A stretch of DNA of 64,000 nt, taken from the NCBI GenBank assembly GCA_001828855.1, contig MHZT01000051.1:1-64000 (forward strand), read 5' to 3'. Under the pieces are notes generated by a model. The model saw nothing but the letters and a program-made list of their open reading frames with translations. It had not been told where the DNA came from and ran no database searches. Position numbers and translations under genes: made by a program. This document shows, piece after piece, positions 18,385 through 37,199 of the stretch (positions are counted from its first letter, which is position 1; each line of letters opens with the position of its first letter). The stretch is from Rhodobacterales bacterium RIFCSPHIGHO2_02_FULL_62_130 (GTDB taxonomy: Bacteria; Pseudomonadota; Alphaproteobacteria; Rhodobacterales; Rhodobacteraceae).

Positions 18385-18385
18385 G

Positions 18386-19759: not shown

Positions 19760-19819
19760 TTTGGCCCCCTGAAAAGGATGGCCCCCTTATGCCGCATAAT
19801 TTGATCAAAAGAAAGGGCG

Positions 19820-21397
19820 TTAGCGCGGCACCCGCACCTCGATCATCCGCGGGCCATCGCAGGGCTGTGACAGCGCCCAATGCAGCGCCTCGGGGTCCAT
19901 CGGAACCGAAGCGAAGGGCAGATCGCAGGCGGCGGCGAAGGGTTCCATATTCAGGGGCGAGGGCGAGCAGCCGATCACCTCGGTATTGGCGCCGCGCATG
20001 GCGTCGGCGATTTCATTGTAGGCGGCGTTGTTCCAGACAAGGAAGGTGATGGGCAGGGCTTCATCCACGGCGGTGCGAAGTTCACCGGGGCTGAATTGCA
20101 GCCCACCGTCACCGATCAGGCAGACCACTTTTTCGCCCTTCGCGGCCAGCGCCGCGCCAACAGCGGCACCCGGTCCGAACCCCAAAGCGCCAAAGCCGGT
20201 GGCGGCGTTGAAAAAACCCCCTGCGCGGTCGTGGTCATAATACAGGTTGGCGGCATAGATCGGCTGGGTGCTGTCACCCACGATCAGCGCGTGGGGCATT
20301 GCGGCGCGGATGGTTTCCACCATGTCCAGACGCGGCGGCATCAGCGCATCCAAGCCCCCCAATTCGGCGCGGGCGGCAATGCGGGCGGCTTCGGCGCGCT
20401 GGGGACCAGTGCCAATCCGGGGTGTCAAATGTGGCAAAATCGCGGCGATGGCGGCGCCTGCGTCGGCATGAAGGGTCAGGGCAGCGGGATGGCGGGCCAG
20501 TTGATCAGCGCAGATGTCGATGCGGATCATTCCCGATATATCGGGAAAACTCCCGCGCATATTCATGTCGTAATCGGTCTGGCCAAGCTCGGTCCCGATG
20601 GCAAGCACTTGATCCGCATCGGCGATCAGAGCGCGGGTGGCCTCAAGGCTGGGCGAGGCAGGCACGCAGAGCGGATGGCCATGCAGCATCCCGCGCGCGT
20701 TCGTTGTCTGCACGACGGGGGCATCCAACGTCTCGGCCAAGGCGCGCAAGGGCGCATCAAGGCCACGCGCGCCACCTCCGGCAAGGATCACCACGCGGGC
20801 GGCGGCGTTCAGTTTCGCGGCGGCGCTTGCGACCTTTTCTGCCAAGGGCGCAAGCGGGGTCGGCTGCGGTTTCGGCGCGGGCAGCGCGGCGCAGGGCAGC
20901 GGCATCACATCGGTCGGCACCTCGATATGCACGGGGCCGGGGCGGCCTGTGGCCATGGTGGCGAAGGCCCAGTCCAGCACCTCGGCCACCTCTGACGCCT
21001 CGGTGATCTGACGGGTGGGGCAAAGCGGGCGCACCATCGCGGCCTGATCGGGCAATTCATGCAGCATCCCAAGGCCAAGGCCCAGCGACGCACGACGGTT
21101 CACGCCGGAAATCACCAGCACCGGCACGGAATCGGCGCGGGATTGGCCCATCGCCGTCAGCGCGTTCAGCAGGCCCGGCCCTGTGATGACGAATGCCACC
21201 CCCGGCTTGCCCGAAACCCGCGCATAGCCATCGGCCATAAAGGCGCAGCCCTGTTCGTGGCGGGCGGTAACATGGCGCAGGGGGCTGCCGGACAGCCCTC
21301 GATAAAGTTCTACCGTATGCACGCCGGGGATGCCGAACACCACTTCGACCCCACGGGCGGCAAGACCCTGAACCAGACGTTCGCCTACGGTTTTCAT
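19820..21397 (-). CDS. ThDP-dependent decarboxylase, AruI-like (5-guanidino-2-oxopentanoate decarboxylase)
   Basis: The 525-residue protein has the three-domain acetolactate-synthase/decarboxylase layout. The catalytic Glu is E48 in RHEQGCAFMADGYAR, GPGLLNA follows, and the ThDP diphosphate/Mg motif starts GDGGLQFSPGELRTAV and ends with NN. It lacks the tail features of true acetolactate synthase, and in context it matches 2-ketoarginine decarboxylase (AruI), which converts 5-guanidino-2-oxopentanoate to 4-guanidinobutanal. The start ATG overlaps the upstream aminotransferase stop (21394-21397), the same coupling expected for aruH-aruI. Assignment of the substrate is inferred from this pairing. 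Confidence 0.78.
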   Translation of the reverse strand: MKTVGERLVQGLAARGVEVVFGIPGVHTVELYRGLSGSPLRHVTARHEQGCAFMADGYARVSGKPGVAFVITGPGLLNALTAMGQSRADSVPVLVISGVNRRASLGLGLGMLHELPDQAAMVRPLCPTRQITEASEVAEVLDWAFATMATGRPGPVHIEVPTDVMPLPCAALPAPKPQPTPLAPLAEKVASAAAKLNAAARVVILAGGGARGLDAPLRALAETLDAPVVQTTNARGMLHGHPLCVPASPSLEATRALIADADQVLAIGTELGQTDYDMNMRGSFPDISGMIRIDICADQLARHPAALTLHADAGAAIAAILPHLTPRIGTGPQRAEAARIAARAELGGLDALMPPRLDMVETIRAAMPHALIVGDSTQPIYAANLYYDHDRAGGFFNAATGFGALGFGPGAAVGAALAAKGEKVVCLIGDGGLQFSPGELRTAVDEALPITFLVWNNAAYNEIADAMRGANTEVIGCSPSPLNMEPFAAACDLPFASVPMDPEALHWALSQPCDGPRMIEVRVPR

Positions 21398-22581
21398 GCG
21401 GCTTTCTCCAGTTGACGGGCGGCAAGGCGGGCGATGCGGGTGCAGGCCTCGTCGATCAACTCATCCTTTTGGGTCAGGCTGACGCGCAGCCATCCGGCCA
21501 GCGAGGTGCCAAAGCTTTCCCCCGGCATCACGGCAAGACGTTCTTCGGCCAGCAGGCGGCGGGCGAAATCATTGCCCGACAAACCCGTGGCGCGGATATC
21601 GACCACGGCGAACATGCCCGCTTCGGGTTGATGCACACGCAGTCCGTTCACCCCATTCAACCGCGCATGGATCAAGGCCGCGCGGCGGGCAAAGCGGCTG
21701 GCCATGCCTGCGGCAACCGGCGAGGGCTGCGACACCGCAAGCGCAGTCATATCCGCGATGAAGGGCTGGTTGCCGAACAGCATGGTTTCCGCCACCGGCA
21801 GGAGGCGGGCGGAAAACGCCGGTGATCCCACGCACCAGCCCGACCGGAATCCGGGGGCGGCGTGGGATTTCGAGATCGAGGCGGTGACAACCGTACGCTC
21901 GGCCAGATCGGGGTTGTCGAAAGGGGAGGCAAAGCGGGTGCCGTCGAACACCAGTTCTTCATAAACCTCGTCGCTGACGATCCAAAGATCATGCTGGATC
22001 GCCAAAGCCCCCAGTGCCGCGATGTCTTCGGCGCGCAGCACTGCCCCTGTGGGATTGTGGGGCGAGTTCAGGAACAAAACGCGGGTGCGGGGTGTGATCC
22101 GCGCGGCCACATCGGCGGCCTGCATGCGAAAGCCGTGTTCGGGGCGCAGCGGCACGGGAACCACGGTGGCCCCTGTGGAGGACACAATGCCTTCGTAGGT
22201 GGCATACATCGGATCGCCGACAAGCACCTCATCCCCAGTCGAGGCAAGCGCCATCATCACGGCATAAAGCGCGGTCTGCGTTCCGGGCAGGGCGATGATC
22301 TGATCCGTGCCGATGGTGCGGCCCGTGCGGGTGCTATAGCGGGCGGCCAGCGCGTTCAGCAGATCGGTTTCGCCGCGCCCGTTGCAATAGCCCAGACGGC
22401 CCGCGTCAATCGCGGCCTTGGCAGCGGCGGTCAGGGCCGCAGGGGTTGGCACGTCAGGCTCGCCAATGGTGAGTTGGATCAGGTCTTCGCCCGCTGCAAG
22501 CATCTGCTTGGCCAGAACGTGAATCTCCCATTTGGCCCCGCCCAGATCGGCAAGGCGGTCGGTGATGGGGGCAAATCTCAT
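21394..22581 (-). CDS. class I/II aminotransferase, AruH-like (arginine:pyruvate transaminase)
   Basis: The 395-residue PLP enzyme has N176 in SPHNPTG, D204 and Y207 in SDEVYEELVF, and the Schiff-base Lys K238 in SISKSHAAPGFRSGW. This is the fold-I aspartate/aromatic group to which arginine:pyruvate transaminase AruH belongs. Being translationally coupled to an AruI-like decarboxylase (ATGA overlap) supports transamination of L-arginine to 2-ketoarginine. It also overlaps the TetR stop upstream (22578-22581), so regulator, transaminase and decarboxylase are translated from one message. An aromatic or aspartate aminotransferase remains possible. Confidence 0.8.
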   Translation of the reverse strand: MRFAPITDRLADLGGAKWEIHVLAKQMLAAGEDLIQLTIGEPDVPTPAALTAAAKAAIDAGRLGYCNGRGETDLLNALAARYSTRTGRTIGTDQIIALPGTQTALYAVMMALASTGDEVLVGDPMYATYEGIVSSTGATVVPVPLRPEHGFRMQAADVAARITPRTRVLFLNSPHNPTGAVLRAEDIAALGALAIQHDLWIVSDEVYEELVFDGTRFASPFDNPDLAERTVVTASISKSHAAPGFRSGWCVGSPAFSARLLPVAETMLFGNQPFIADMTALAVSQPSPVAAGMASRFARRAALIHARLNGVNGLRVHQPEAGMFAVVDIRATGLSGNDFARRLLAEERLAVMPGESFGTSLAGWLRVSLTQKDELIDEACTRIARLAARQLEKAA

Positions 22582-23228
22582 GTCTGGTCTCCTGAGGGTG
22601 TCGGCGGGGTGTCGGTAAGGGTCATGCCAAGGATGGCCGCCACGGCACTGATCCCGATGCGTTCCAATTCGCCGGGGGCAAAGCCTTCGGGCAGGGCCGA
22701 GCCTTCAAGCCACAGCCCGTCGATCACGGCGTTGCAGGCAATCGCATCGGCGCGCAGGCGGGCATCATCGGCTTTGCGGGGCAGGGCTGCGATCAGCGAT
22801 TGCAGCATGTCGCGGTAGGCCAGATAGCTTTGCTTGTGGATGGCGCGCATGGCGTCATCGCTGCGGACGGCGTGAATGAAACCGGCCCAGACGCCCAGTC
22901 GCAGCGGATCGACCACGGGTGGCCGGAGCGAGGCCGTCACAAAGGCCACAAGCCGCGCGCCGGGGTCTTCTGGCGTATCTTGCAGCGCCTCGGCATTGTC
23001 GCCCGTCATGCGGTCCATCAGACGCAGATAGGCGGCGCGGGTCAGATCGTCCTTGGTCGCGAAATAATGCCGGATAAGCCCCGGTGTTACCCCCGCGCGA
23101 TCCGCAATCGCACGCACCGTCGCGGCCTGCGGGCCGCCTTCCGCCACCAGATCAAGCGCCGCCGAGATCATCGCATCGCGCCGCGTCTCTTCGCTTTCGC
23201 GTTTATAGGGGCGGCGGTCGGCAGTCAT
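22578..23228 (-). CDS. TetR family regulator (BetI-like)
   Basis: The 216-residue regulator has an N-terminal TetR DNA-binding domain (TRRDAMISAALDLVAEGG then VRAIADRAGVTPGLIRHYF, residues about 15-56) and a BetI/YcdC-type C-terminal ligand domain with WAGFIHAVRSD. It heads the operon with the AruH/AruI-like genes and overlaps the transaminase by four bases, so it most likely represses its own operon until an arginine- or amine-derived ligand binds. A candidate operator lies at 23244-23259. Confidence 0.87.
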   Translation of the reverse strand: MTADRRPYKRESEETRRDAMISAALDLVAEGGPQAATVRAIADRAGVTPGLIRHYFATKDDLTRAAYLRLMDRMTGDNAEALQDTPEDPGARLVAFVTASLRPPVVDPLRLGVWAGFIHAVRSDDAMRAIHKQSYLAYRDMLQSLIAALPRKADDARLRADAIACNAVIDGLWLEGSALPEGFAPGELERIGISAVAAILGMTLTDTPPTPSGDQT

Positions 23229-26179: not shown

Positions 26180-26842
26180 ATGGAAATTTTTACCACCGCC
26201 GGACTATACGCGCTGCTACAGGTCATCATGATTGACCTTGTTCTGGCGGGGGACAACGCCATCGTGATCGGCCTTGCGGCCGCAGGTCTGCCCAAAGAAC
26301 AGCGGACAAAGGCAATTCTTGTCGGCATCATTGCCGCAACCGTGATGCGTATTTTCTTCGCGCTGATCACGACGCAGCTTCTGGCCATCGTGGGTTTGCT
26401 TCTGGCCGGTGGCGTGCTGCTGCTCTGGGTCTGCTGGAAGATGTGGCGCGAACTGCGGATGAGCAATGCCGATGACCATAACGTCGATGAGGTTCTGGCA
26501 AACGCCGATCTGAACGCAGACGGCACCATCGCGGGTGGCGTGCCGAATAAGACCTTCAAGCAGGCCGCTTGGCAGATCGTGATCGCCGACGTGTCGATGT
26601 CTTTGGACAACGTGCTGGCCGTGGCCGGTGCCGCGCGCGAGCATCCGACGGTTCTGGTGATCGGTCTGGTGCTGTCGATTGCGCTGATGGGCCTTGCCGC
26701 GACCTTCATCGCGCGTCTGCTGCACAAGCACCGCTGGATTGCCTATGTCGGCCTTGCGATCATCCTTTACGTCGCGGTTGACATGATCTGGCGCGGCTGG
26801 ACCGAAGTGCAGCCGATTGTGATGTCGGCGCTGGCGACCTGA
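26180..26842 (+). CDS. TerC family membrane protein (YjbE-like)
   Basis: The 220-residue protein has about six to seven helices and the duplicated acidic motif of the TerC family: DLVLAGDNAIVIGLA near residue 19 and DVSMSLDNVLAVAG near residue 137. These motifs are linked to Mn(II)/metal export and to metalation of secreted enzymes. The central loop (residues about 92-118) is Asp/Asn-rich (NADDHNVDE, NADLNADGT) and looks like a possible metal-binding linker. No yybP-ykoY riboswitch is recognised in the 111-base leader. Confidence 0.87.
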   Translation: MEIFTTAGLYALLQVIMIDLVLAGDNAIVIGLAAAGLPKEQRTKAILVGIIAATVMRIFFALITTQLLAIVGLLLAGGVLLLWVCWKMWRELRMSNADDHNVDEVLANADLNADGTIAGGVPNKTFKQAAWQIVIADVSMSLDNVLAVAGAAREHPTVLVIGLVLSIALMGLAATFIARLLHKHRWIAYVGLAIILYVAVDMIWRGWTEVQPIVMSALAT

Positions 26843-26851
26843 ACCCTTTGC

Positions 26852-26873
26852 GCCAGCCCCTGACCGGGCTGGC
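26852..26873. terminator. hairpin downstream of terC
   Basis: GCCAGCCC, a 6-base loop and GGGCTGGC form a perfect 8-bp stem ten bases after the terC stop. It lacks a T tract. Confidence 0.5.
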
Positions 26874-26899
26874 CGCACATATGGAATAGGCCAGGCTTT

Positions 26900-26925
26900 G
26901 GGTGTGATCCGTCAGGGTCACACCC
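26900..26925. terminator. convergent terminator
   Basis: GGGTGTGA, a 10-base loop and TCACACCC form a stem followed by TTTGTGTTT. It lies between convergent genes ending at 26842 and 26934, so it can end the terC transcript. Confidence 0.65.
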
Positions 26926-26933
26926 TTTGTGTT

Positions 26934-27713
26934 TCAAGGGCGGCGCAGAAGGGCGGCTTTGCGGGCCTTGACCTCGGCATCCGGCAAGGTGCTGCGGTTC
27001 AGGGCAAGCAGTTCTGCCGATAGATCGGCGCTGCGGCCTGCGTTCCTGACGCCTATATCGCGGATGCTGGCGCGCAAGCCGGCGGGCAGGTACAGCAGGC
27101 GGAGGACGGCCTCGGCAGGTCCGGCGGGTTCGGCCTGTATCTCCTCCAGTGCCACCGACGTTAGCGTGGCACGGGGCAGGGCGGTGGTCAGATTGGCGAT
27201 CAGAGCCGGAAAATCGGCGGCCTTGGCACAGGTGCTGCGGAAACTGTCTAAATCCTCGGTCACTCGATAGCCCGCCAGATTGTGCCGCCATGCCGAGTAA
27301 AGCCAGCTTTCGGCATCGCGGGTGGTGTAAAGGAAGTGCTGTTCGGCCTTGGCCCCGAACACCGCTTTGACGCAGGCAGACATTGCTTGGGCCAAGGGCA
27401 GGGCCGCGCTGTAATCGTTGATGCCTTTCTTGCCGGGGGTGCGGCCCGACAGCCCTTCGCAAGACAGGATCAGGGTCTGGTGGCCCTCGGTGGCCAGCCT
27501 TTCGCACAGCGCCACAAAGGCCGCATTAAACCCCGCCAGATCGAAGGGATCGCCCCCCACGGCAAAGCGGGTGGCGCGTTTCAGGACATCCGCCATCTCG
27601 TCATGCAGGACAAGGCGGGCATGGGGCAGAAGGGCCGCGCGGTGGCGGGCAAGGATTGCTTGCAGGCTGGAGGTGCCGGTCTTGTGGAACCCCGCATGCA
27701 GGATAATCCGCAT
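26934..27713 (-). CDS. sulfotransferase-like protein of unknown function
   Basis: The 259-residue protein starts with a beta strand and a P-loop-like GFHKTGTSSLQ (residues 8-18), which matches the 5'-phosphosulfate-binding loop of PAPS-dependent sulfotransferases. The 3' site may be the YTTRDAESWLYSAW segment (Arg then Ser, residues about 129-142). No other domain is recognisable. The gene starts three bases after the stop of the DadA-like oxidase gene, so it is probably co-transcribed. No transporter or glycan gene is adjacent, so the acceptor is unknown and the assignment rests on the loop motif. Confidence 0.6.
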   Translation of the reverse strand: MRIILHAGFHKTGTSSLQAILARHRAALLPHARLVLHDEMADVLKRATRFAVGGDPFDLAGFNAAFVALCERLATEGHQTLILSCEGLSGRTPGKKGINDYSAALPLAQAMSACVKAVFGAKAEQHFLYTTRDAESWLYSAWRHNLAGYRVTEDLDSFRSTCAKAADFPALIANLTTALPRATLTSVALEEIQAEPAGPAEAVLRLLYLPAGLRASIRDIGVRNAGRSADLSAELLALNRSTLPDAEVKARKAALLRRP

Positions 27714-27716
27714 CGG

Positions 27717-28958
27717 CTAGAACCGTGTCGGAAGGTAGGGTGTCAGATCCAGTTCTGGCGCGCGCCCTGCCACCAGCGCCGCGACCAGCCGCGCTGTGAT
27801 CGGGGCCAGCGTCAGGCCGATATGGCCGTGGCCATAGGCGTGGATCACCTCGAGGCCTGCGCGCGACGCACCGATGACGGGCAGAGAATCCGGCATTGAC
27901 GGACGGAAGCCCATCCATGTGCGGTCAGGCTCTCCAAGATCAGGGAAGATCGCCCGTGCGCCTTCAACCAGTTTGGCGATGCGGTGGGGCGAGGGCGGCA
28001 GGGCCAGCCCGCCCAACTCCACCGTGCCAGCGACCCGCAAACGCCCCTGCATCGGACACAGGTAGAAGCCGCGCGTGGTGGGGCAGGTCGGTCGGGTCAG
28101 GCGCGGTTTGGCCATATCCCATTCGACGTGATAGCCGCGCTCGGTGTCCAGTGGCACGCGGTCGCCCGCGCTGCGGGCCAGTGTGCGGCTATGCGCCCCC
28201 GCCGCGATGATGACAGTGCGCGCATGCAGCCGCATCCCCGGCCCTTCGACGATGGTGCCGTCGAACTGGCGGGTGATTGTCTCGGCGCGGGCTTGGATGA
28301 AACCAGCGTGCTGGAACACATGCTCGGCCAGATAGGCCACCATATGGCCCGGATCGGAGAGGAACACGGCCTTGGGGAAATAGGCCGCTCCGCCCTCGAC
28401 CGCAGGCAGGTTCGGCTCCATCTGCGCCAAGGTGTCGGGGTCTATCAACTCAACCGTGATGCCTTGGGTGCGGCGGAAGGCCATGTCGGCCTCGGCGGCG
28501 CGGTAGGCAGCGGCGGTTTCGTAAAGGTACAGGCAGCCCCGCCGCTGCATCAGATCGGTCGCGCCGATCCTTTCGGCCAAACCCTCCCACGACGGGCAGG
28601 CATCGGCAACAAGCGCTGCAATCGCCGCCGCATTGCGACGGGTGGCTGCAGGCAGCGACTGGCGGGCAAAGCGCATCAGCCACGGCGCAAGGCTGGGCAG
28701 CGCCTCGCGCCGGATCGCAAGCGGGGAATTCTTGTCGAACAGCAAGGACGGCAGGTTTTTCAACACATCGGGCGAGCCGACCGGCATCACCGCATAATCT
28801 GCGATGGTGCCGGCATTGCCATAGCTGGCCCCCATACCGGGGGTGTCGGGATCAACCAGCACCACATCGCGGCCTTCAGCGATCAGCGCCTCGGCTATGG
28901 CAAGCCCTACGACCCCCGCCCCCAGAATGGCGATATCGGTGGTCATGTGCTGCATCAT
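27717..28958 (-). CDS. DadA-like FAD-dependent amino acid dehydrogenase/oxidase
   Basis: The 413-residue flavoprotein has an N-terminal FAD motif IAILGAGVVGLAIAEALIAEG, a DAO-family core and a C-terminal WMGFRPSMPDSLPVIG segment typical of D-amino-acid dehydrogenase (DadA), ending in YGHGHIGLTLAP. Such enzymes oxidise D-amino acids or N-substituted glycines, passing electrons to the respiratory chain or oxygen. Clustered ATGs at 28958, 28955 and 28946 are possible starts, none with a strong ribosome-binding site. It lies downstream of the alcohol dehydrogenase gene beyond a terminator-like hairpin. It may oxidise the amino acid released by the proposed gamma-glutamyl pathway. Confidence 0.83.
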   Translation of the reverse strand: MMQHMTTDIAILGAGVVGLAIAEALIAEGRDVVLVDPDTPGMGASYGNAGTIADYAVMPVGSPDVLKNLPSLLFDKNSPLAIRREALPSLAPWLMRFARQSLPAATRRNAAAIAALVADACPSWEGLAERIGATDLMQRRGCLYLYETAAAYRAAEADMAFRRTQGITVELIDPDTLAQMEPNLPAVEGGAAYFPKAVFLSDPGHMVAYLAEHVFQHAGFIQARAETITRQFDGTIVEGPGMRLHARTVIIAAGAHSRTLARSAGDRVPLDTERGYHVEWDMAKPRLTRPTCPTTRGFYLCPMQGRLRVAGTVELGGLALPPSPHRIAKLVEGARAIFPDLGEPDRTWMGFRPSMPDSLPVIGASRAGLEVIHAYGHGHIGLTLAPITARLVAALVAGRAPELDLTPYLPTRF

Positions 28959-28995
28959 AGGTAAGGTCCGTCGGTCTTTGGCGTGCTGGGCAAGA

Positions 28996-29042
28996 CTGAC
29001 AGCCCTTCGCGGCGGGGGCAAGCCGCTGCAAAGGGCTGTCAG
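28996..29042 (-). terminator. hairpin after the alcohol dehydrogenase gene
   Basis: CTGACAGCCCTT and AAGGGCTGTCAG form a perfect 12-bp stem around a GC-rich loop, starting nine bases after the Fe-ADH stop. There is no T tract, so it may reduce read-through into the oxidase gene rather than end the transcript. Confidence 0.6.
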
Positions 29043-29051
29043 CGAAACGGG

Positions 29052-30212
29052 TTACATACAGGCGCCAAACAGGGCGCGGGTGTTTTCCGATGTCATGACA
29101 ACGGGGTTGCCGCCGCAGGACGGGTCTTCCAGCGCCATGTCGGTCAGCATGTCCAGATCTTCGGGTTTCACGCCGAGGGCGGTCAGGTTGGCGGGAATGT
29201 TCAACTCGGCCCGCAGCGCCATGATCGCGGCGCGGAAGCCATCAAACCCGCCCGCAATGCCCAGATAGGCGGCGGCTTTCTCGATCCGGTCCTCGATTGC
29301 GGCGCGGTTCATGTCCAGCACCATCGGCATCACAACGGCATTGGTGGTGCCGTGGTGGGTGCCGTAAACCGCGCCAATCGGGTGCGAGAGCGAGTGGATC
29401 GCCCCCAGACCCTTCTGGAAGGCCACGGCCCCCATCGCCGCCGCCGACATCATGTGTGCGCGGGCGTCCAGATCGTTGGGGTTGGCGTAGACCTTCGGCA
29501 GGTTTTCAAACACCAGCCGCATGCCCTCAAGGGCGATGCCTTGGCTCATCGGGTGGTAGAACGGGCTGGAGTAAGCCTCAAGGCAATGGGCCAGCGCATC
29601 CATGCCTGTGCCTGCGGTGATGAAGCGCGGCATCCCCACCGTCAGCGCGGGGTCGCAGATCGTGACCACGGGCAGCAGTTTCGGATGGAAGATGATCTTT
29701 TTCTTATGCGTGACCGAATTGGTCAGAACGCCTGCGCGGCCCACTTCGGACCCCGTGCCTGCGGTCGTCGGCACAGCGATGATCGGCGCGATTTTCGACG
29801 CATCGGCGCGGGTATACCAGTCGTCCACGTCCTCAAGGTCCCAGACCGAAAGATCGGCGCGCTGATGCGCCATCAGGGCGATCATCTTGCCCAGATCAAG
29901 CGCCGAACCGCCGCCAAAGCAGATCACGCCGTCATGGCCACCGGCCAGATAGGCGGCGATGCCGTCGGCCATGTTGGTTTCATTCGGGTTCGGATCAACT
30001 TCCGAGAATACAGCGGTGCCAAGGCCCGCGGCCTTCAGGACCGCCACCGCCTCGGCGGTGATCGGAAGTGATGCCAGCGCCTTGTCGGTCACGAACAGCG
30101 GCTTTTTCACGCCTGCGCCCGCGCAATGCTCGGCCAGTTCGGCAATCCGGCCCACGCCGAATTTGATTGCGGTCGGGTAGGACCAGTTCCGGTTGGGAAC
30201 GTTATGGGTCAT
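29052..30212 (-). CDS. iron-containing alcohol dehydrogenase
   Basis: The 386-residue group III (iron-type) alcohol dehydrogenase has the NAD motif FGGGSALDLGK and PTTAGTGSE. Metal ligands are expected at Asp in CDPALT, His in MDALAHCLEAY, and His in HSLSHPIGA and GTHHG. It reversibly oxidises a primary alcohol to an aldehyde. The ATG at 30212 follows AAGGTGA and overlaps the aldehyde dehydrogenase stop by ATGA (30209-30212), so alcohol and aldehyde oxidation are coupled. With the GS-like ligase upstream, the substrate could be a gamma-glutamylated amino alcohol; this is inferred. Confidence 0.9.
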   Translation of the reverse strand: MTHNVPNRNWSYPTAIKFGVGRIAELAEHCAGAGVKKPLFVTDKALASLPITAEAVAVLKAAGLGTAVFSEVDPNPNETNMADGIAAYLAGGHDGVICFGGGSALDLGKMIALMAHQRADLSVWDLEDVDDWYTRADASKIAPIIAVPTTAGTGSEVGRAGVLTNSVTHKKKIIFHPKLLPVVTICDPALTVGMPRFITAGTGMDALAHCLEAYSSPFYHPMSQGIALEGMRLVFENLPKVYANPNDLDARAHMMSAAAMGAVAFQKGLGAIHSLSHPIGAVYGTHHGTTNAVVMPMVLDMNRAAIEDRIEKAAAYLGIAGGFDGFRAAIMALRAELNIPANLTALGVKPEDLDMLTDMALEDPSCGGNPVVMTSENTRALFGACM

Positions 30213-31594
30213 TTCGTCACCTTCTTCAGATGGTAGGATTTCGGACGGGTCACCGAATGGAACCCAAGATAAGACAGGCTGTTGCCGCGGCCGGTATCCT
30301 TGCAGCCGGTCCAGCACAGGGCCGGATCAAGGTAATCGGCGCGGTTCATAAAGATGGTGCCGGTTTCGATCTGCGCGCCGATTTCGGCAGCGACATCAGG
30401 GCTTTGCGTCCAGATTGAGGCGGTCAGACCGTAAGGCGAGTCGTTCATCAGCGCAATCGCTTCGGCATCATCCTTGACCTTCATGATGCCGACCACGGGG
30501 CCGAAGGACTCCTCCATCATCACCCGCATCGAGTGGTTCACATCGACAAGAATCTGCGGGGCAAGATAGGCGCCGCCATCATCGGCAGGGAACAGCGCGG
30601 GATCGATCAGGGGTTTGGCGCCTGCGGCAATCGCCTCGGCAATCTGCGAGCGGACCACGGCAGCAAAGCGTTTGTTCGCCATCGGCCCAAGGGTCGATGC
30701 CGCGTCAAACGGATTGCCCAGCGTCAGGCCCTTGACCCAAGCCACGGCCTTTTCCACGAAGGCGTCATAGAGGGATTCATGCACATAAATCCGCTCGATC
30801 CCGCAGCAGCACTGGCCCGCGTTATACATCGCACCATCCATCAGCGTATCGACCGCCGCGTCCAGATCGGCATCGGCGCGGACATAGCCGGGGTCCTTGC
30901 CGCCCAGTTCCAGCCCAAGGCCGGTGAAAGTGCCTGCGGCGGCCTTCTCCATCGCCACACCGCCCGCGACCGAGCCGGTGAAGTTCACGAAATTGAACGC
31001 CCGCGCGCCGATCAGGTGTTCGGTGGTGGCATGATCCAGCACGACGTTCTGGAACACATCCTCGGGGATGCCCGCAGCGTGGAAGGCCTCGGCCAGACGC
31101 TCGCCCACCAGCAGGGTTTGGCTGGCGTGTTTCAGGATCACGGTGTTGCCCGCGATCAGGGCAGGGGCCAGCGTGTTGATCGTGGTCAGGTAGGGGTAAT
31201 TCCACGGGGCGACGATGAATACCACGCCCACGGCCTCACGCGCCAGATAGCGGCGGAATTTCTCGGAATCTTCAATGACATGCGGGGCGAGAGTGGCTTC
31301 GGCGATCTCGGACATGTAGTTGGTGCGGTCATTCACGCCGCCAAACTCGCCGCCGAAACGGGTGGGGCGGCCCATCTGCCATGCCAGTTCGTCCACCAGC
31401 ACGTCTTTCTTCTCGATCAGCTTGGCGACACCGGCTTTGACCAGCGCGATCCGCTCGGCCAAGGGGCGCGCGGCCCAAGCCTTTTGCGCGGCCTTTGCGC
31501 GTGCGGCGGCGGCGATGGCGGCCTCGCGCGAGAGGGGCATCCGCTCGGCATAGACCGAACCGTCCACCGGAGAAATCAGTTGTATGGCTTTCAT
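30209..31594 (-). CDS. aldehyde dehydrogenase family protein
   Basis: The 461-residue NAD(P)-dependent enzyme has the WNYP motif (APWNYPYLT), NFTGSVAGG, the general-base Glu in LGLELGGKDPGYV, a catalytic Cys in NAGQCCCGIERIYVH (three consecutive Cys) and the ESFGPVVGI motif. It oxidises an aldehyde to the acid. Its stop overlaps the Fe-ADH start by four bases. The leader holds an inverted pair of family B repeats (31605-31661). The order GS-like ligase, ALDH, ADH resembles gamma-glutamyl amine/amino-alcohol pathways. Confidence 0.92.
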   Translation of the reverse strand: MKAIQLISPVDGSVYAERMPLSREAAIAAAARAKAAQKAWAARPLAERIALVKAGVAKLIEKKDVLVDELAWQMGRPTRFGGEFGGVNDRTNYMSEIAEATLAPHVIEDSEKFRRYLAREAVGVVFIVAPWNYPYLTTINTLAPALIAGNTVILKHASQTLLVGERLAEAFHAAGIPEDVFQNVVLDHATTEHLIGARAFNFVNFTGSVAGGVAMEKAAAGTFTGLGLELGGKDPGYVRADADLDAAVDTLMDGAMYNAGQCCCGIERIYVHESLYDAFVEKAVAWVKGLTLGNPFDAASTLGPMANKRFAAVVRSQIAEAIAAGAKPLIDPALFPADDGGAYLAPQILVDVNHSMRVMMEESFGPVVGIMKVKDDAEAIALMNDSPYGLTASIWTQSPDVAAEIGAQIETGTIFMNRADYLDPALCWTGCKDTGRGNSLSYLGFHSVTRPKSYHLKKVTK

Positions 31595-31604
31595 AACTTA
31601 CCTC

Positions 31605-31661
31605 GTAGGTCGGGGTTCACCCCGACGATCTGTCGCCATGTCGGGGTGAACCCCGACCTAC
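31605..31661. repeat. family B repeats in perfect inverted orientation
   Basis: Two 22-base units (31605-31626 and 31640-31661) are exact reverse complements separated by 13 bases. Each contains the self-complementary core GTCGGGGTTCACCCCGAC. The pair lies eleven bases upstream of the aldehyde dehydrogenase start, inside its leader, and could form a long cruciform or RNA hairpin. Confidence 0.8.
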
Positions 31662-31716
31662 AATTTTCAGCCATCGCATCGGGCTGACCGGCGCGGTGGC
31701 GTCGTTGTCTCGTTTT

Positions 31717-31734
31717 GTCGGGGTTCACCCCGAC
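31717..31734. repeat. family B repeat, core only
   Basis: An isolated GTCGGGGTTCACCCCGAC core lies 15 bases downstream of the GS-family gene stop at 31750. As a 7-8 bp stem it may also act as a terminator for that gene. Confidence 0.7.
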
Positions 31735-31749
31735 ATGATCCGCCAAACC

Positions 31750-33129
31750 TTACGCGCGTTCCAACAAACGCTGCACTTCGAAATCGGTCACAACGCGGTC
31801 AGTTTCCGAAATCTCCCACTGGGCGGCGTGGTGGTAGTGGTCGATCACATCATCGCCAAAGGCCGCGCGCAGCATGGCTGAACCGGTCAGCAGGCTGGCC
31901 GCCTCGCGCAGGTTATGCGGGATTTCGCGGATACCGGCGGTGTTATACATGTCGCCCGACATTTCCGGTTCAAGCTCCATCTTGCCCTCGATCCCCGCAA
32001 GCCCTGCGGCCAGCAGCGCGGCACAGGCAAGATAGGGGTTCACATCGCTGCCCGGAATGCGACATTCCACCCGCACCGCCTTGGAATGCACGCCACAAAC
32101 GCGGAAACCTGCAGTGCGGTTGTCGGCACTCCATACTGCCTTGGTGGGGGCGAACATGCCGACGGTGAACCGCTTGTAGCTGTTCACGTAAGGCGCCAGA
32201 AACGCGGTGATCTCGCCCGCATGGGACAGTTGCCCCGCCATATAGTGCTTCATCAGCGCCGACATGCCGTGCTTGTCGTCATGATCGGCAAAAGCCGCCT
32301 TGCCGTCCTTGGTCCACAGGCTTTGGTGGATATGGCTGGAAGACCCCGCCTTGCGGTGGTCATACTTGGCCATGAAGGTCACCGACTTGCCCTTGGTCCA
32401 AGCGATTTCCTTGACGCTGTTCTTGACGATCACATGGTTGTCGGCCGTATCCAGCGCGTCGGAGTAGCGGTAGTTGATCTCTTCCTGCCCCGCGTCCGCT
32501 TCTCCCTTCGAGTTTTCGACCGGAATACCCGCATCGTAAAGCCCGTTGCGGATGGCGCGCATCACGTCTTCTTCCTTGGTCGTCTGGAAGATGTGGTAAT
32601 CCTCGTTATAGGATGACACCGGTTTCAGATCGCGCAGGCCGCCGTCGCGCAGGTTTTCGTAAGAATTTTCAAACAGGTAGAACTCCAGCTCCGTCGCCAT
32701 CATCGGCTCGAAGCCCAAGGCGCGGGCGCGGGCGACCTGTTTCTTCAGGATCGCGCGGGGGCTGTGCGGAACCTCATGGCCGTGGTGGTCCAGCGTGTCA
32801 CCCAGCACCAGCGCGGTGCCCGGCAGCCACGGGATGCGGCGCAGGGTGGACAGATCGGGTTTCAGCACATAGTCGCCATAGCCGGTCTGCCAGCTGCTGG
32901 ATTTATAGCCCTGAACCGTGTTCATTTCCATATCGACGGTCAGCAGATAGTTGCAGCAATGGGTTTCTTCATACCCGCCATTCACGAAGAAGGCGGCGTG
33001 AAAGCGTTTGCCCATCAGGCGGCCTTGCATGTCGATCCCGCAGACAAGAACGGTATCAATCTCGCCAGCGGCGACGGCGGCTTTCAGGTTTTCTAATGTC
33101 AGATTGCCGGGCATATTAGGGTTCTCCAC
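31750..33129 (-). CDS. glutamine synthetase family ligase (gamma-glutamyl-amine synthesis type)
   Basis: The 459-residue GS-fold protein has GIDMQGRLMGKR near the N terminus, metal-binding ATELEFYLFE, GEADAGQEEINYR, the ATP-site GSSSHIHQSLW (His-x-His), TVGMFAPTKAVWSADNRTAGFR and RVECRIPGSDVNPYL. It lacks the length and adenylylation loop of GlnA, and its neighbours are catabolic (aldehyde and alcohol dehydrogenases, amidohydrolase, RpiR regulator). It therefore probably ligates glutamate to an amine or amino alcohol. Alternative start ATGs are at 33129 and 33114. It is distinct from the second GS-like ligase at 16990. Confidence 0.85.
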   Translation of the reverse strand: MENPNMPGNLTLENLKAAVAAGEIDTVLVCGIDMQGRLMGKRFHAAFFVNGGYEETHCCNYLLTVDMEMNTVQGYKSSSWQTGYGDYVLKPDLSTLRRIPWLPGTALVLGDTLDHHGHEVPHSPRAILKKQVARARALGFEPMMATELEFYLFENSYENLRDGGLRDLKPVSSYNEDYHIFQTTKEEDVMRAIRNGLYDAGIPVENSKGEADAGQEEINYRYSDALDTADNHVIVKNSVKEIAWTKGKSVTFMAKYDHRKAGSSSHIHQSLWTKDGKAAFADHDDKHGMSALMKHYMAGQLSHAGEITAFLAPYVNSYKRFTVGMFAPTKAVWSADNRTAGFRVCGVHSKAVRVECRIPGSDVNPYLACAALLAAGLAGIEGKMELEPEMSGDMYNTAGIREIPHNLREAASLLTGSAMLRAAFGDDVIDHYHHAAQWEISETDRVVTDFEVQRLLERA

Positions 33130-33229
33130 TGTTGGTTGCCCCGATATTTTGCGGGGTCTTTATCAGGTCTAGGCGGCGCGAACGGTCAAAGACGCGGTGC
33201 GCCGGATCAAATCTTGTGCAGCGGCGGTT

Positions 33230-34015
33230 TTATCCGGCCTTCGCCTGCTTCTGGATTTCGACCAGCCCCATATTGAGAACCGGAGCCAGTGCCTCGGCCA
33301 TCGCCTCTTCGGCTTCGGGCGAGCCGATCAGATCGTTGCGGATTTCCAGCATGGCGTTGGGCAGGCCATAGGGCGTGGCCAGAACGCGCAGGCTGTGGGT
33401 GACATCATCGGCTGCCGAATAGGGGGCGTTCAGTTCCACGCGCAGGTTGGTTGTGGCTTGGGCGGCGGCAAGGATCGCCTTGGCATAGGACGGGTCGGCA
33501 TCATGGATCACACCGAATTCGACGCTGCGGCTTTGGCCGAAATAGACGGGTGTAAAGGAATGGATGGTGACGATCACAGGCCGTTGCCCGCGCGCGATGC
33601 GTTCCACAATCAGCCCATGCGCCGCGTTATGGAAGGGCAGATAGACGCTTTGCGTGCGTGCCAGACGTTCCTCGGCGGAAATAGCGGCATTGCCCGGAAT
33701 GTCATGCACTTCGGACCTTGAGGGCATCGCCCCCGCCATGTCAGGCGCGCGGTTGCAATCGTAGACCAGACGGCTGACCGGCGCATGGATCAGCACCGCA
33801 TCCAGTCGCCGCGCCAACCCCCGCGCCAACCCCAAAGCGCCCGGATCCCACGCGATATGGGCGCGGCGTTGATCCGGCGAAAGGCCCAGATCGCCCCAGC
33901 GCGGCGGGATCAGATTGGACGCATGTTCGCAGACCAGAACGATCCGGCCCGAGGCATCGGCATTCTCGATCACGGGCGGATACAGGTCCGCTGGTTGTTT
34001 GACACTTGCTCGCAT
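33230..34015 (-). CDS. N-formylglutamate amidohydrolase family protein
   Basis: The 261-residue protein belongs to the FGase (HutG-type) family: VLVCEHASNLIPP near residue 26 with an expected metal site, IAWDPGA, DCNRAPD, VTIHSFTPVYFG and LNAPYSAADD. Known members cleave N-formyl-L-glutamate in histidine degradation, but no hut genes are here. Sitting first in a cluster with a GS-family ligase and two dehydrogenases, it may instead hydrolyse a gamma-glutamyl or N-acyl-glutamate-like amide, releasing glutamate. It is divergent from the RpiR regulator gene with a candidate operator between them. Confidence 0.85.
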   Translation of the reverse strand: MRASVKQPADLYPPVIENADASGRIVLVCEHASNLIPPRWGDLGLSPDQRRAHIAWDPGALGLARGLARRLDAVLIHAPVSRLVYDCNRAPDMAGAMPSRSEVHDIPGNAAISAEERLARTQSVYLPFHNAAHGLIVERIARGQRPVIVTIHSFTPVYFGQSRSVEFGVIHDADPSYAKAILAAAQATTNLRVELNAPYSAADDVTHSLRVLATPYGLPNAMLEIRNDLIGSPEAEEAMAEALAPVLNMGLVEIQKQAKAG

Positions 34016-34070
34016 GGCAGCGAGTCATCTCCCTTTTTCTTTTCAGGCTGTCGCGTTGCTTCGATCCTGT

Positions 34071-34085
34071 CAAGAATGTTTCTTG
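34071..34085. promoter_or_regulatory. candidate operator of the RpiR regulator
   Basis: CAAGAA-TGT-TTCTTG is a perfect inverted repeat in the 146-base region between the divergent amidohydrolase gene (start 34015) and the RpiR gene (start 34162). The position suits control of both directions. Binding is inferred only. Confidence 0.45.
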
Positions 34086-34161
34086 GGGCGCGGCTCTGTT
34101 ACGATGTTTTCCAAATGGGAATTCTGCATTAGGCTTCGGCGTGCAGAAGGCGGGGGATGGC

Positions 34162-35031
34162 ATGGCCGAGACGATGACAATGGACGATCAGTTGCGCGCG
34201 GCACTGTCCGATCTGACGCGGGCCGAACGGCAGTTGGCCACGCATATCCTGTCGCATTACCCGGTGGCGGCTTTGGGGTCGATCACGCAACTGGCCAAGG
34301 CCGCGCTGGTGTCAACTCCGACCGTGGTGCGGTTGGCGCAAAAGCTGGGTTACAAGGGCTATCCCGATTTCCAGAACTCGCTGCGGGCCGAGGTGGAAAC
34401 GATGCTGATCTCGCCCTTGGCCAAGCATGACCGCTGGGCGGGGGGGGTGCCGGATACGCATATCCTGAACCGCTTTGCCGATGCGGTGGTGTCGAACCTG
34501 CAAGCCACCTTGGGCCAGATCGACCATGCCGAATTTGATGCCGCCGCAGCGCTGCTGGCCGATCCGGCGCGCAGGGTCTTTGCGATGGGCGGGCGGATCA
34601 CCCATGCGATGGCCGACTATTTCACCTCGCTGATGAAGGTGGTCCGGCCCGAGGTGACCCTGCTCTCGGACAGTTCATCCACATGGCCGCCGACCTTGCT
34701 GGATATGTCGCAGGGCGATGTGCTGCTGGTCTTCGACATCCGCCGCTATGAAAACGCCGTGCTACAGGTGGCGGAAATGGCCAAGGAACAGGGGGCCGAG
34801 ATCATCCTGATCACCGACCGCTGGGTCTCGCCCGCCGCCGCCCACGCCCGCCATACCCTCTGCTGCCATATCGAGGCGCCATCGGCTTGGGATAGCAACG
34901 TGTCCTTGATGGTTCTGGTGGAAACCCTGTTGGCCGCCGTGCAGGGTCTGACATGGGAAGTCACCGAAAGCCGGATGAAGCGGATGGAGGATCTTTACGC
35001 CCGCACCCGCTTTTTCCGCCGCTACCGCTAG
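34162..35031 (+). CDS. MurR/RpiR family transcriptional regulator
   Basis: The 289-residue protein has an N-terminal RpiR helix-turn-helix (ALGSITQLAKAALVSTPTVV then RLAQKLGYKGYPDF, about residues 34-70) and a C-terminal SIS domain (RVFAMGGRITHAMADYFTSL, about 137-156, and ALLVFDIRRYE-like segment). SIS domains usually bind a phosphosugar or related anion. The ATG at 34162 follows GGGGGA; the longer frame to 34006 crosses the divergent promoter. It most likely controls the leftward catabolic cluster starting at 34015. Confidence 0.88.
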   Translation: MAETMTMDDQLRAALSDLTRAERQLATHILSHYPVAALGSITQLAKAALVSTPTVVRLAQKLGYKGYPDFQNSLRAEVETMLISPLAKHDRWAGGVPDTHILNRFADAVVSNLQATLGQIDHAEFDAAAALLADPARRVFAMGGRITHAMADYFTSLMKVVRPEVTLLSDSSSTWPPTLLDMSQGDVLLVFDIRRYENAVLQVAEMAKEQGAEIILITDRWVSPAAAHARHTLCCHIEAPSAWDSNVSLMVLVETLLAAVQGLTWEVTESRMKRMEDLYARTRFFRRYR

Positions 35032-35073
35032 ACCAACCATTGCCCCACGACAAAAAAGGCAAAGCCCCGCAGG

Positions 35074-35106
35074 TTTCATCTTGGCTCAAATACTCCCGCC
35101 GGAGGC
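35074..35106 (-). repeat. intergenic repeat, form A1
   Basis: On the minus strand it reads GCCTCCGGCGGGAGTATTTG then AGCCAAGATGAAA, differing from the copy at 16043 by one base over the shared length. It lies about 40 bases past the RpiR stop. Confidence 0.7.
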
Positions 35107-35185
35107 TTCCACAGAAGCCCCGCGCACAAGGCCAGATAGTTATGGCCGCCATGACCAAGGCCAGCCCCCCTCTCGCGCCAGCCTC

Positions 35186-35207
35186 GTAGGTCGGGGTTCA
35201 CCCCGAC
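35186..35207. repeat. family B repeat unit
   Basis: This is a full unit with the GTAG head and the GTCGGGGTTCACCCCGAC-type core, identical to 31605-31626. It lies 16 bases beyond the stop of the leftward EamA gene and could serve as its terminator stem. Confidence 0.75.
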
Positions 35208-35223
35208 TCTGCCACAGCCCCCG

Positions 35224-36111
35224 TCAGGCCAGCACAGGGGCTGCCGTCGCCCGCTCGCGCGCGCCGATCAGCGCGTTCAGCACCACGGCCACCAACAGCA
35301 CAGCACCGCCGACAAAGGTCGCGGCAGTCGCCGTTTCGCCCAGAAAGAGCCAGACCCAGATCGGGGCCAGCAGCACCTCGACCAGTGACAAAAGCGTGGC
35401 TTGCGCGGCAGGGATCACACGGCTGCCGATGGTATAAAGCACCATGCCGCCCGCCAAAGTGACCGCCCCCATGCCCGCCGAAATGGCGATTTCAAGGGCA
35501 GGAATGGCAAGGCTCTGGCCTTGGGAACCCACCACCAGCGCGCCTGCGACCATCGAGAACAGCCCGCCCAGCACCACGGCGGGCAGCATATTGGCCAGCT
35601 TGCCCCAGCGCAGGGTGATCGTGAACGTGGCAAACCCAAGCGCCGACAGCAGCGCCGCGACATTGCCAGCAACCGCACCGCCCGCCACGCCTTCGCGTAC
35701 CATCATCAGCACGCCCACCACGGCCAGCGCAATTGCGCCCCATGTCGCGCGGCTGACGTGTTCGCGCAGGATCAACCAACCCAGCAGCGCCGCAAAGAAG
35801 GGCGAGGCCGAAAACAACAGCACCGCATTGGCGACGGTGGTAGCCTGAAACGCAAAGATCGCACCGGAAAACGCCGCGACCAGACCCATGCCGCCGATCA
35901 TGCCCGCCACGCCGACCGCGCGAAATTCAGGCCAGATCCGCCCGCCCGATTGAACACCAATCCACACCAGCAACACCGGCACCATCCCGACCGAGCGCCA
36001 GAACAGGATCTCCCAACTGCCGGCCTCGTGGATATTGCGGATGATCAGCCCTTGCACCGACCAGACCGCCCCGGCCAGCAACACCAAACCCGCACCCGTC
36101 GCGTAACGCAT
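35224..36111 (-). CDS. EamA/DMT family transporter
   Basis: The 295-residue inner-membrane protein has about ten helices in two EamA repeats (residues about 5-135 and 145-280). The segments WSVQGLIIR.., NAVLLFSASPFFAALLGWL and SLVEVLLAPIWVWLFLGE are typical of DMT permeases that move amino acids or other small metabolites outward. The substrate is unknown. The AGGGG ribosome-binding site lies in the 3' arm of a GCCCCTG/CAGGGGC hairpin (36117-36149). Confidence 0.87.
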   Translation of the reverse strand: MRYATGAGLVLLAGAVWSVQGLIIRNIHEAGSWEILFWRSVGMVPVLLVWIGVQSGGRIWPEFRAVGVAGMIGGMGLVAAFSGAIFAFQATTVANAVLLFSASPFFAALLGWLILREHVSRATWGAIALAVVGVLMMVREGVAGGAVAGNVAALLSALGFATFTITLRWGKLANMLPAVVLGGLFSMVAGALVVGSQGQSLAIPALEIAISAGMGAVTLAGGMVLYTIGSRVIPAAQATLLSLVEVLLAPIWVWLFLGETATAATFVGGAVLLVAVVLNALIGARERATAAPVLA

Positions 36112-36201: not shown

Positions 36202-37134
36202 TCAGTATCCGCGCGTGCGATCCACCAGATTAAGGAAGGGCAGTCCGGCTTCACCGCGCCGGATATTCTCGGCCAGCACCTTTGCGGCCCCGCTGGAGCG
36301 GGTGTCGGCGGCGATATGCGGCGTTACGGTCACGCGCGGGTGGGTCCAGTAGGGATGGTCTTGCGGCAGGGGTTCGACGCGGAACACATCCAGCGTGGCA
36401 TGGCCGATATGACCCGCATCCAGCGCCGCCAGCAGCGCCGCGTCATCAATCAGCGCGCCGCGACCGGGGTTCAGGATCGTGGCCCCTGCGCGCATCCAGG
36501 ACAGGCAGCGGGCATCCAGCAGGTTTTCCGTCTCGGGCGTCTTGGGCAGCAGCGTGACCACGATATCAGCCCCCGACAGTGCGGCCTGCAAGCCGTCTTC
36601 GCCGTGCAGGCAGGGCAGGCCGAGGCCGGTCTTTTCGGTCCGGCTCCACCCCGTCACCGGAAAATTGAGCGCCATAAGCGCGCGCGCGCAGGCCAGACCC
36701 AGCGCGCCCATGCCCAGCATCGCCACCGGCCTTTCGCGCGCCAAGGGCGGGCAGGCGGGGTTCCAGACGCGGTTCGGATTGACGATATGGCGATCCATGC
36801 CAAGGTGATGGCGCAGGCTGTGGCCCACCACCCATTCCACCATGCCCTCGGTCAGTCCGGTATCGACCATGCGGCACAGGGGTTGCGTCAGGGTTGGATT
36901 GCCTACGATCCGCTCCACCCCCGCCCAAAGGTTCAGAACGGCCTTGGTGCGGGTGAAGGGGGTGAAATCCTGCAACGGCGATGAGGGCGCGTAGATGATA
37001 TAATCCACCGCTGCCGGGTCAGCCGCCTCGGTCACCAGCCGCGCGGTGATTCCGGCGGCAGACAAGGCGGCGGGCAAAACATCGCGGTATTCATCCCAGA
37101 CATTCGGGGCAGAAAAGTAGATGGTGACGGTCAT
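36202..37134 (-). CDS. glyoxylate/hydroxypyruvate reductase A-like (D-2-hydroxyacid dehydrogenase)
   Basis: The 310-residue protein resembles GhrA: short N-terminal substrate domain with LNLWAGVERIVGNPTL, VEWVVGHSLRHH, Rossmann loop AMLGMGALGLACARAL, and catalytic Arg in NPGRGALIDD, Glu in FRVEPLP and His in VTVTPHIAADT. It reduces glyoxylate or hydroxypyruvate with NADPH. The ATG at 37134 follows AGGGAG; the longer frame to 37374 runs into the DUF1345 gene. It is upstream of the EamA gene in the same direction, 90 bases apart. Confidence 0.87.
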   Translation of the reverse strand: MTVTIYFSAPNVWDEYRDVLPAALSAAGITARLVTEAADPAAVDYIIYAPSSPLQDFTPFTRTKAVLNLWAGVERIVGNPTLTQPLCRMVDTGLTEGMVEWVVGHSLRHHLGMDRHIVNPNRVWNPACPPLARERPVAMLGMGALGLACARALMALNFPVTGWSRTEKTGLGLPCLHGEDGLQAALSGADIVVTLLPKTPETENLLDARCLSWMRAGATILNPGRGALIDDAALLAALDAGHIGHATLDVFRVEPLPQDHPYWTHPRVTVTPHIAADTRSSGAAKVLAENIRRGEAGLPFLNLVDRTRGY

Positions 37135-37199
37135 GGCGCGGACTCCCTGCATCGGCCAAGGTGTAAGGGCAGCTATGGGCGCTGTCCACAAGGCTGGGC

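Follow-up and report, generated by a model that had tools for sequence, protein, structure and literature searches.

What does the cluster of six genes at positions 27717-35031 of contig MHZT01000051.1 from Rhodobacterales bacterium RIFCSPHIGHO2_02_FULL_62_130 enable its host to degrade? The window, that is, the whole stretch of 64,000 nucleotides analysed here, is part of this contig (C51) in a genome of 4.97 Mb (G000). A preliminary description had recognized five clustered genes and a divergent RpiR-family regulator, an arrangement that we confirmed: the five are co-directional at 27717-34015, each of the six reading frames is intact, and every family assignment is supported by Pfam. Judging from sequence comparisons, the set is highly likely to be an operon for the catabolism of ethanolamine, a constituent of membrane lipids, by gamma-glutamylation. 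The core of this pathway is already in print, and the window carries a variant with an extra flavoenzyme, no tripartite ATP-independent periplasmic (TRAP) transporter genes and a pair of boxes upstream. A published pathway, described in a marine Roseobacter, is thereby placed, in modified form, in many freshwater-type Rhodobacteraceae, raising the questions of how ethanolamine is imported in TRAP-less species and whether glycine exits as glyoxylate.

Starting from the regulator, the minus strand encodes a protein of the N-formylglutamate amidohydrolase (FGase) family (33230..34015; PF05013, 2.4e-39), a glutamine synthetase (GS)-family ligase (31750..33114; Gln-synt_C PF00120, 1.2e-104), an aldehyde dehydrogenase (ALDH; 30209..31594; Aldedh PF00171, 1.3e-115) and an Fe-alcohol dehydrogenase (ADH; 29052..30212; PF00465, 2e-44). 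The last gene of the set (27717..28955; PF01266, 2.9e-61) encodes a DadA/ThiO-like flavoenzyme of the D-amino acid oxidase (DAO) family, with a start at 28955-28958 being likelier than the TTG at 29021. The ALDH and ADH genes overlap by 4 bp, whereas the remaining gaps measure 115 bp (FGase-ligase), 155 bp (ligase-ALDH) and 93-96 bp (ADH-DAO); a pattern scan of 26800-35300 detected no minus-strand terminator-like site within the five-gene set.

The set of PF00120, PF00465, PF00171 and PF05013, all present together in the window, corresponds to the gamma-glutamylation route for ethanolamine in Chromohalobacter salexigens and Streptomyces coelicolor (PMC9397018, Table 2). By analogy, the ligase, a proposed gamma-glutamylethanolamide synthetase, would join glutamate to ethanolamine in an ATP-dependent reaction; the ADH and ALDH, proposed gamma-glutamylethanolamide and gamma-glutamylacetaldehydeamide dehydrogenases, respectively, would convert gamma-glutamylethanolamide to gamma-glutamylglycine; and the FGase-family enzyme, a proposed gamma-glutamylglycine hydrolase, would release glycine and glutamate, the latter being recycled. 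The same steps, with glycine and glutamate as the products, have been proposed for the two published routes. In S. coelicolor, the genes are SCO1611, SCO1612, SCO1613 (GlnA4) and SCO1615 (PMC6529630, PMC9397018), and ligase activity has been published; regulation there differs, being exerted by EpuRI (SCO1614), and the pathway sections of these reports mention no extra flavoenzyme for either S. coelicolor or C. salexigens.

A close published counterpart in gene content is the operon MED193_10021-10056 of Phaeobacter sp. MED193, which encodes RpiR, GGAH, EtoV, EtoW, EtoX, ETAGA, GAADDH and GETADH; five of its proteins increase during growth on phosphorylethanolamine, and the Kd of EtoX for ethanolamine is about 7.9 uM (PMC10132767). 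According to the same report, an ethanolamine pathway made up of these genes was shown to function in both C. salexigens and Agrobacterium tumefaciens. The MED193 operon and the window share, in the same listed order, RpiR, the FGase-family GGAH, the GS-family ligase, ALDH and ADH, but differ in that the EtoVWX TRAP genes are found only in MED193 and the DAO-family gene only in the window. Plasmid 1 of Paracoccus denitrificans PD1222 has the same gene order as the window, but with TRAP genes, and its proteins are 55-80% identical to those of the window. Plasmid pAA03 of Aminobacter aminovorans shows gene-for-gene synteny with the window and likewise has no TRAP genes between FGase and ligase. 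The window ADH is 80% identical to the P. denitrificans copy and 66% to that of Aminobacter, the ALDH 71% and 69%, respectively. Unlike the window, neither plasmid has a DAO gene after ADH; on pAA03, bhcRABCD occupies the ADH side of the core. The Escherichia coli Puu putrescine pathway follows the same logic of ligase, aldehyde dehydrogenase and hydrolase, but employs the oxidase PuuB in the place of the alcohol dehydrogenase, and its hydrolase PuuD is not listed as an FGase; against the PuuA model, the window ligase scores 199 of 650 bits.

We favour ethanolamine as the likely substrate in this strain because the four-family set matches the published one, because the gene content and order agree with MED193 except for the transporters, and because the ligase is kin to the solved structure 5dm3 and the TRAP binding protein of a sister locus matches 4uab. 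The preliminary description had proposed the sequence of ligase, ADH, ALDH and FGase-family hydrolase for an amino alcohol, which is supported in outline. The parallel that it drew, isopropylamine/alaninol degradation (Ipu), was set aside as a first choice, since the gene-for-gene match to the ethanolamine operon is closer; for Ipu of Pseudomonas sp. KIE171, the comparison is at the level of the pathway description.

Could the ligase be an ordinary ammonia-dependent glutamine synthetase? All the metal and glutamate residues checked in an alignment with E. coli GlnA (L143) are kept, which speaks for such an enzyme. However, the protein scores 254 of 429 bits against the curated GlnA model, below the cut-off, and the flap Glu327 and Tyr179 of E. 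coli GlnA are replaced by Phe and Asp, respectively, in the window ligase, in six aligned sister ligases and in 5dm3; the roles of all the compared residues are those that we presume for GlnA. Moreover, contig C47 of the same genome encodes a separate full GlnA, which scores 644.9 bits against the cut-off of 429. We therefore rejected the glutamine synthetase explanation as very improbable, in agreement with the preliminary description. The best solved relatives of the ligase are 5dm3 (8.9e-189) and 11zs (1.6e-173), with the next chain at 2.3e-56; we take 5dm3, and also 4uab, to be C. salexigens proteins. From its kinship to 5dm3, the ligase is proposed to make gamma-glutamylethanolamide. In one sister locus (L052), the ligase is only 68% identical to that of the window, compared to 87-88% for ALDH and ADH, and may have been exchanged.

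The FGase-family protein has no match in NCBIfam. Its best solved relative by sequence is 2odf (Atu2144; 2.4e-72), which is also matched by the structural model (mean predicted local distance difference test score (pLDDT) 89.3) with a template modelling (TM) score of 0.90 and 49% identity; the next structure match, 2q7s, titled N-formylglutamate amidohydrolase, shares 15% identity. From sequence and model, we propose that this enzyme splits gamma-glutamylglycine. A hydrolase role for this family had been considered new in the preliminary description, but it has been proposed for S. coelicolor SCO1615 (PMC6529630) and assigned in C. salexigens (PMC9397018, Table 2) and to Phaeobacter MED193_10026 (PMC10132767); in the relevant parts of these three reports, the assignments rest on prediction and proteomics, not on direct assay. 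Searching the literature for ethanolamine together with N-formylglutamate amidohydrolase as an exact phrase gave no match, although the idea has been printed under other wording.

Conservation of the gene set was assessed in 80 loci, nearly all from Rhodobacteraceae, which surround the FGase genes most similar to that of the window (the best 80 of 279 matches); among named loci, those with the nearest FGase carry the labels Pseudorhodobacter, Cypionkella and other Rhodobacteraceae. The ligase gene lies downstream of FGase on the same strand in 75 of the 80 loci, whereas the other five contain no ligase within the 159-3260 bp of downstream sequence available. RpiR is divergent and adjacent to FGase in 78 loci (one lacks it and one is cut), ALDH is present in 72 and ADH in 70, and the DAO gene directly follows ADH in 58 of 63 scorable loci (the five without it have at least 900 bp examined; seven were counted as cut). 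Furthermore, a ligase at E below 1e-170 is encoded in 27 of 37 genomes from the same family, and a close FGase, at E 1e-59 or better, in 20. Each of these 20 also has the ligase, no more than 5 kb away on the same contig, whereas a ligase is present in seven of the 17 genomes without a close FGase (Fisher p 5.6e-5, with thresholds chosen by us and uncorrected for kinship). The co-occurrence across relatives, which the preliminary description suggested checking, is thus borne out: the five genes and RpiR are one conserved unit, beyond chance. Plasmid copies also exist: the region is matched by 182 records in distant blastn, none of them with a single stretch covering more than 80% of it.

The final gene of the unit is the least readily assigned. 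The flavoenzyme scores under every curated NCBIfam cut-off, reaching 169 of 383 bits against the E. coli-type DadA model (PRK00711; 25% identity to E. coli DadA) and 120 of 250.8 bits against the ThiO model. The best fold match of its structural model (pLDDT 87.2) is the glycine oxidase 4ysh (1.1e-29), a fold common to many amine oxidases, and it carries an Arg within the aligned GFRP segment which presumably faces the substrate in the glycine oxidase/DAO family. Given that the pathway product is glycine, the simplest reading is oxidation of glycine to glyoxylate by a glycine oxidase or dehydrogenase, for which we see about an even chance; the step would probably also yield ammonia. The suggestion in the preliminary description that the DadA-like enzyme oxidizes the product amino acid hence receives some support.

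Alternatively, the DadA-like gene could be a neighbour with a role of its own, for instance in D-amino acid catabolism, outside the ethanolamine route. Consistent with such independence, the gene is absent from the five scorable loci mentioned above (L093, L096, L099, L108 and L109), from six Roseobacter-type loci (L133-L138) and from beside the P. denitrificans operon, and in L066, a copy with 71% identity lies on the opposite side of RpiR. Its position on the same strand, 7-341 bp past ADH, in 58 loci argues for the contrary, as does pAA03, where the core also adjoins a flavin enzyme with a ThiO-like subunit; we take the neighbour explanation seriously while leaning against it. On pAA03 (L167, NZ_CP015008.1), the TRAP-less core is flanked by bhcRABCD and by a three-part flavin enzyme that is unrelated to the window flavoenzyme and whose ThiO-like subunit scores 129 bits, below the 250.8 cut-off; we see this arrangement as a parallel. 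Besides the loci that lack the flavoenzyme gene, three results speak against glycine oxidation in the window's genome: BhcC has no match there at E 1e-60 or better (six of 14 congeners have one), the best glyoxylate carboligase match, at 353.6 of 711.2 bits, stays under the cut-off, and gcvP is present, as described below. The beta-hydroxyaspartate cycle, for which the best BhcA relative has 53% identity, was accordingly rejected for this genome. A GhrA-like gene at 36202-37152 was considered for a post-glyoxylate step but is linked to the operon by synteny only; among loci whose sequence extends 2600 bp or more beyond RpiR on its upstream side, it occurs in 24 of 33 TRAP-less and 11 of 26 TRAP-bearing ones. 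No title among the literature matches listed joins glycine oxidase or the beta-hydroxyaspartate cycle to a gamma-glutamyl ethanolamine cluster.

The second departure from the published operon concerns transport. In the window, the 115 bp between FGase and ligase contain no gene, whereas 30 of the 75 ligase-bearing loci have a TRAP system with its binding protein at this position; as an example, the L066 binding protein matches 4uab at 4e-177. One further locus (L052:8796-10647) has genes for the small and large TRAP permeases before the ligase without a binding-protein gene, and the remaining 44 have neither TRAP genes nor remnants in the operon, for which reason we treat the EtoX-type TRAP protein as a feature of one operon form, not of the pathway. 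In a tree of joined ALDH and ADH sequences (79 rows), TRAP presence changes 10 times, nine of these changes being forced by well-supported branches; here, TRAP denotes a DctP match anywhere in the DNA examined, and loci that are cut at the DAO position were counted with those lacking DAO. In the lineage of the window, the EtoVWX genes would have been lost from the operon and the ThiO/DadA-like flavoenzyme gained. An EtoX-type binding protein (E 1e-60 or better) is missing from 13 of the 14 congeners as well, with G014 carrying one on another contig. The EtoX-like TRAP set of G014 (L139, contig C7), situated off the operon contig, has no match to the operator pattern described below at up to two mismatches. 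In L096 (4776-6278), the place of TRAP between the RpiR/FGase pair and the ligase is occupied by an amino acid-polyamine-organocation (APC) permease whose nearest model is that of the ethanolamine permease, TIGR00908, which likewise speaks for ethanolamine. As a replacement importer, we considered the EamA gene at 35224-36111, which is near the operon in 24 of the 33 TRAP-less and 10 of the 26 TRAP-bearing loci with sufficient upstream sequence; the association is confounded by kinship and was not adopted.

The absence from the window of the TRAP genes, by which sister loci are linked to ethanolamine, together with the DAO-family gene added in its clade, would also fit the same chemistry acting on alaninol, 3-aminopropanol or another such amino alcohol, whose amino acid product would then go to the DadA-like enzyme. 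Against a change of this kind, the ligase, ALDH and ADH are 81-97% identical to those of many TRAP-bearing loci (e.g. L106, ligase 90%), and TRAP-bearing and TRAP-less loci are intermixed in the tree, which together argue for an unchanged substrate. We consider a different amino alcohol improbable and retain ethanolamine.

Several observations nevertheless weigh against the reading as an ethanolamine operon. At E 1e-60 or better, the window's genome contains neither an EtoX-type binding protein nor a TIGR00908 match, and the L096 permease itself, at 347 bits, is below the model cut-off of 381.75. Three congeners, G008, G010 and G011 (L123, L124 and L125), retain ligase, ALDH and ADH without an adjoining RpiR or FGase; a distant FGase relative (E 1e-20 or better) is encoded elsewhere in G010 and G011, but not in G008. 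Conversely, G037 has RpiR, FGase and TRAP without a nearby ligase. Finally, glycine could instead enter glycine cleavage: gcvP (glycine cleavage P protein, 1401 bits) lies at window positions 58154-60910, about 23 kb from the operon. As a separate observation, in L124 and L125, genes of other kinds sit before the ligase.

Taken further, and with some hesitation, these data can be combined into a broader scenario in which freshwater Rhodobacteraceae possess a one-operon route from ethanolamine to glyoxylate via a new glycine oxidase/dehydrogenase subfamily, while in another lineage, on pAA03, the TRAP-less core adjoins the genes of the beta-hydroxyaspartate cycle, in which glycine would condense with glyoxylate. 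The TRAP genes would have been dropped repeatedly, with ethanolamine entering through an unrecognised carrier or by diffusion. As a whole, we regard this scenario as possible rather than probable.

How might the operon be controlled? As in the Proteobacterial copies, an RpiR gene (about 34162-35031, plus strand; HTH_6 4.8e-17 and SIS 1.7e-18) diverges from FGase. Upstream of FGase are two related, conserved boxes on the minus strand (34067..34112), at 34112-34096 and 34084-34067, the second of which covers a TTGACA hexamer. At up to one mismatch, the pattern GAAANATTSTWRACAG has 64 matches in the 1.13 Mb of the 80 loci, one each in 64 loci, all within 250 bp upstream of FGase and none elsewhere, whereas the reversed control pattern has 0 matches; since the pattern was derived from the same loci in which it was counted, only its absence elsewhere and the zero control are informative. 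Sixteen loci have no match at this threshold; the upstream box, with up to three mismatches allowed, occurs in 71 of the 80. Of the six loci of Roseobacter type (L133-L138), just two, L135 and L138, contain the pattern at up to two mismatches. The operon is thus recognisable by a specific upstream sequence, which we regard as a putative RpiR operator; the divergent RpiR protein would control the operon from this two-box site over the promoter. The scan of 26800-35300 yielded no sigma-70-like promoter at its thresholds, so that the promoter call derives solely from TTGACA conservation. Across the window's genome, the pattern has a single exact site (34067-34082), and two further sites have one mismatch. 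The latter, just upstream of a response-regulator-like gene and inside an ATP-binding-protein-like gene (both by eye), were considered in a search of the regulon for a hidden transporter but were not adopted.

Beyond the operon, 3 bp past the flavoenzyme gene, a weak sulfotransferase-like frame (26934-27713; Sulfotransfer_4 20.8 bits, cut-off 22.8) had no tblastn match at 1e-10 among the matches listed for the 110 loci scanned. Two other GS-family gene sets are present in the same genome. The first (L149; contig C13, about 220.6-225.6 kb) comprises RpiR, isochorismatase-family, GS-family, FGase-family and class III aminotransferase genes, adjoins a branched-chain-type ATP-binding cassette (ABC) transporter gene and is possibly another gamma-glutamyl amine route. 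The second, within the window at 16990-23228, consists of a GS-family gene (464 aa) followed by genes for a class III aminotransferase and a thiamine pyrophosphate (TPP)-dependent enzyme, along with further aminotransferase-like and TetR-like genes, both recognized by eye.

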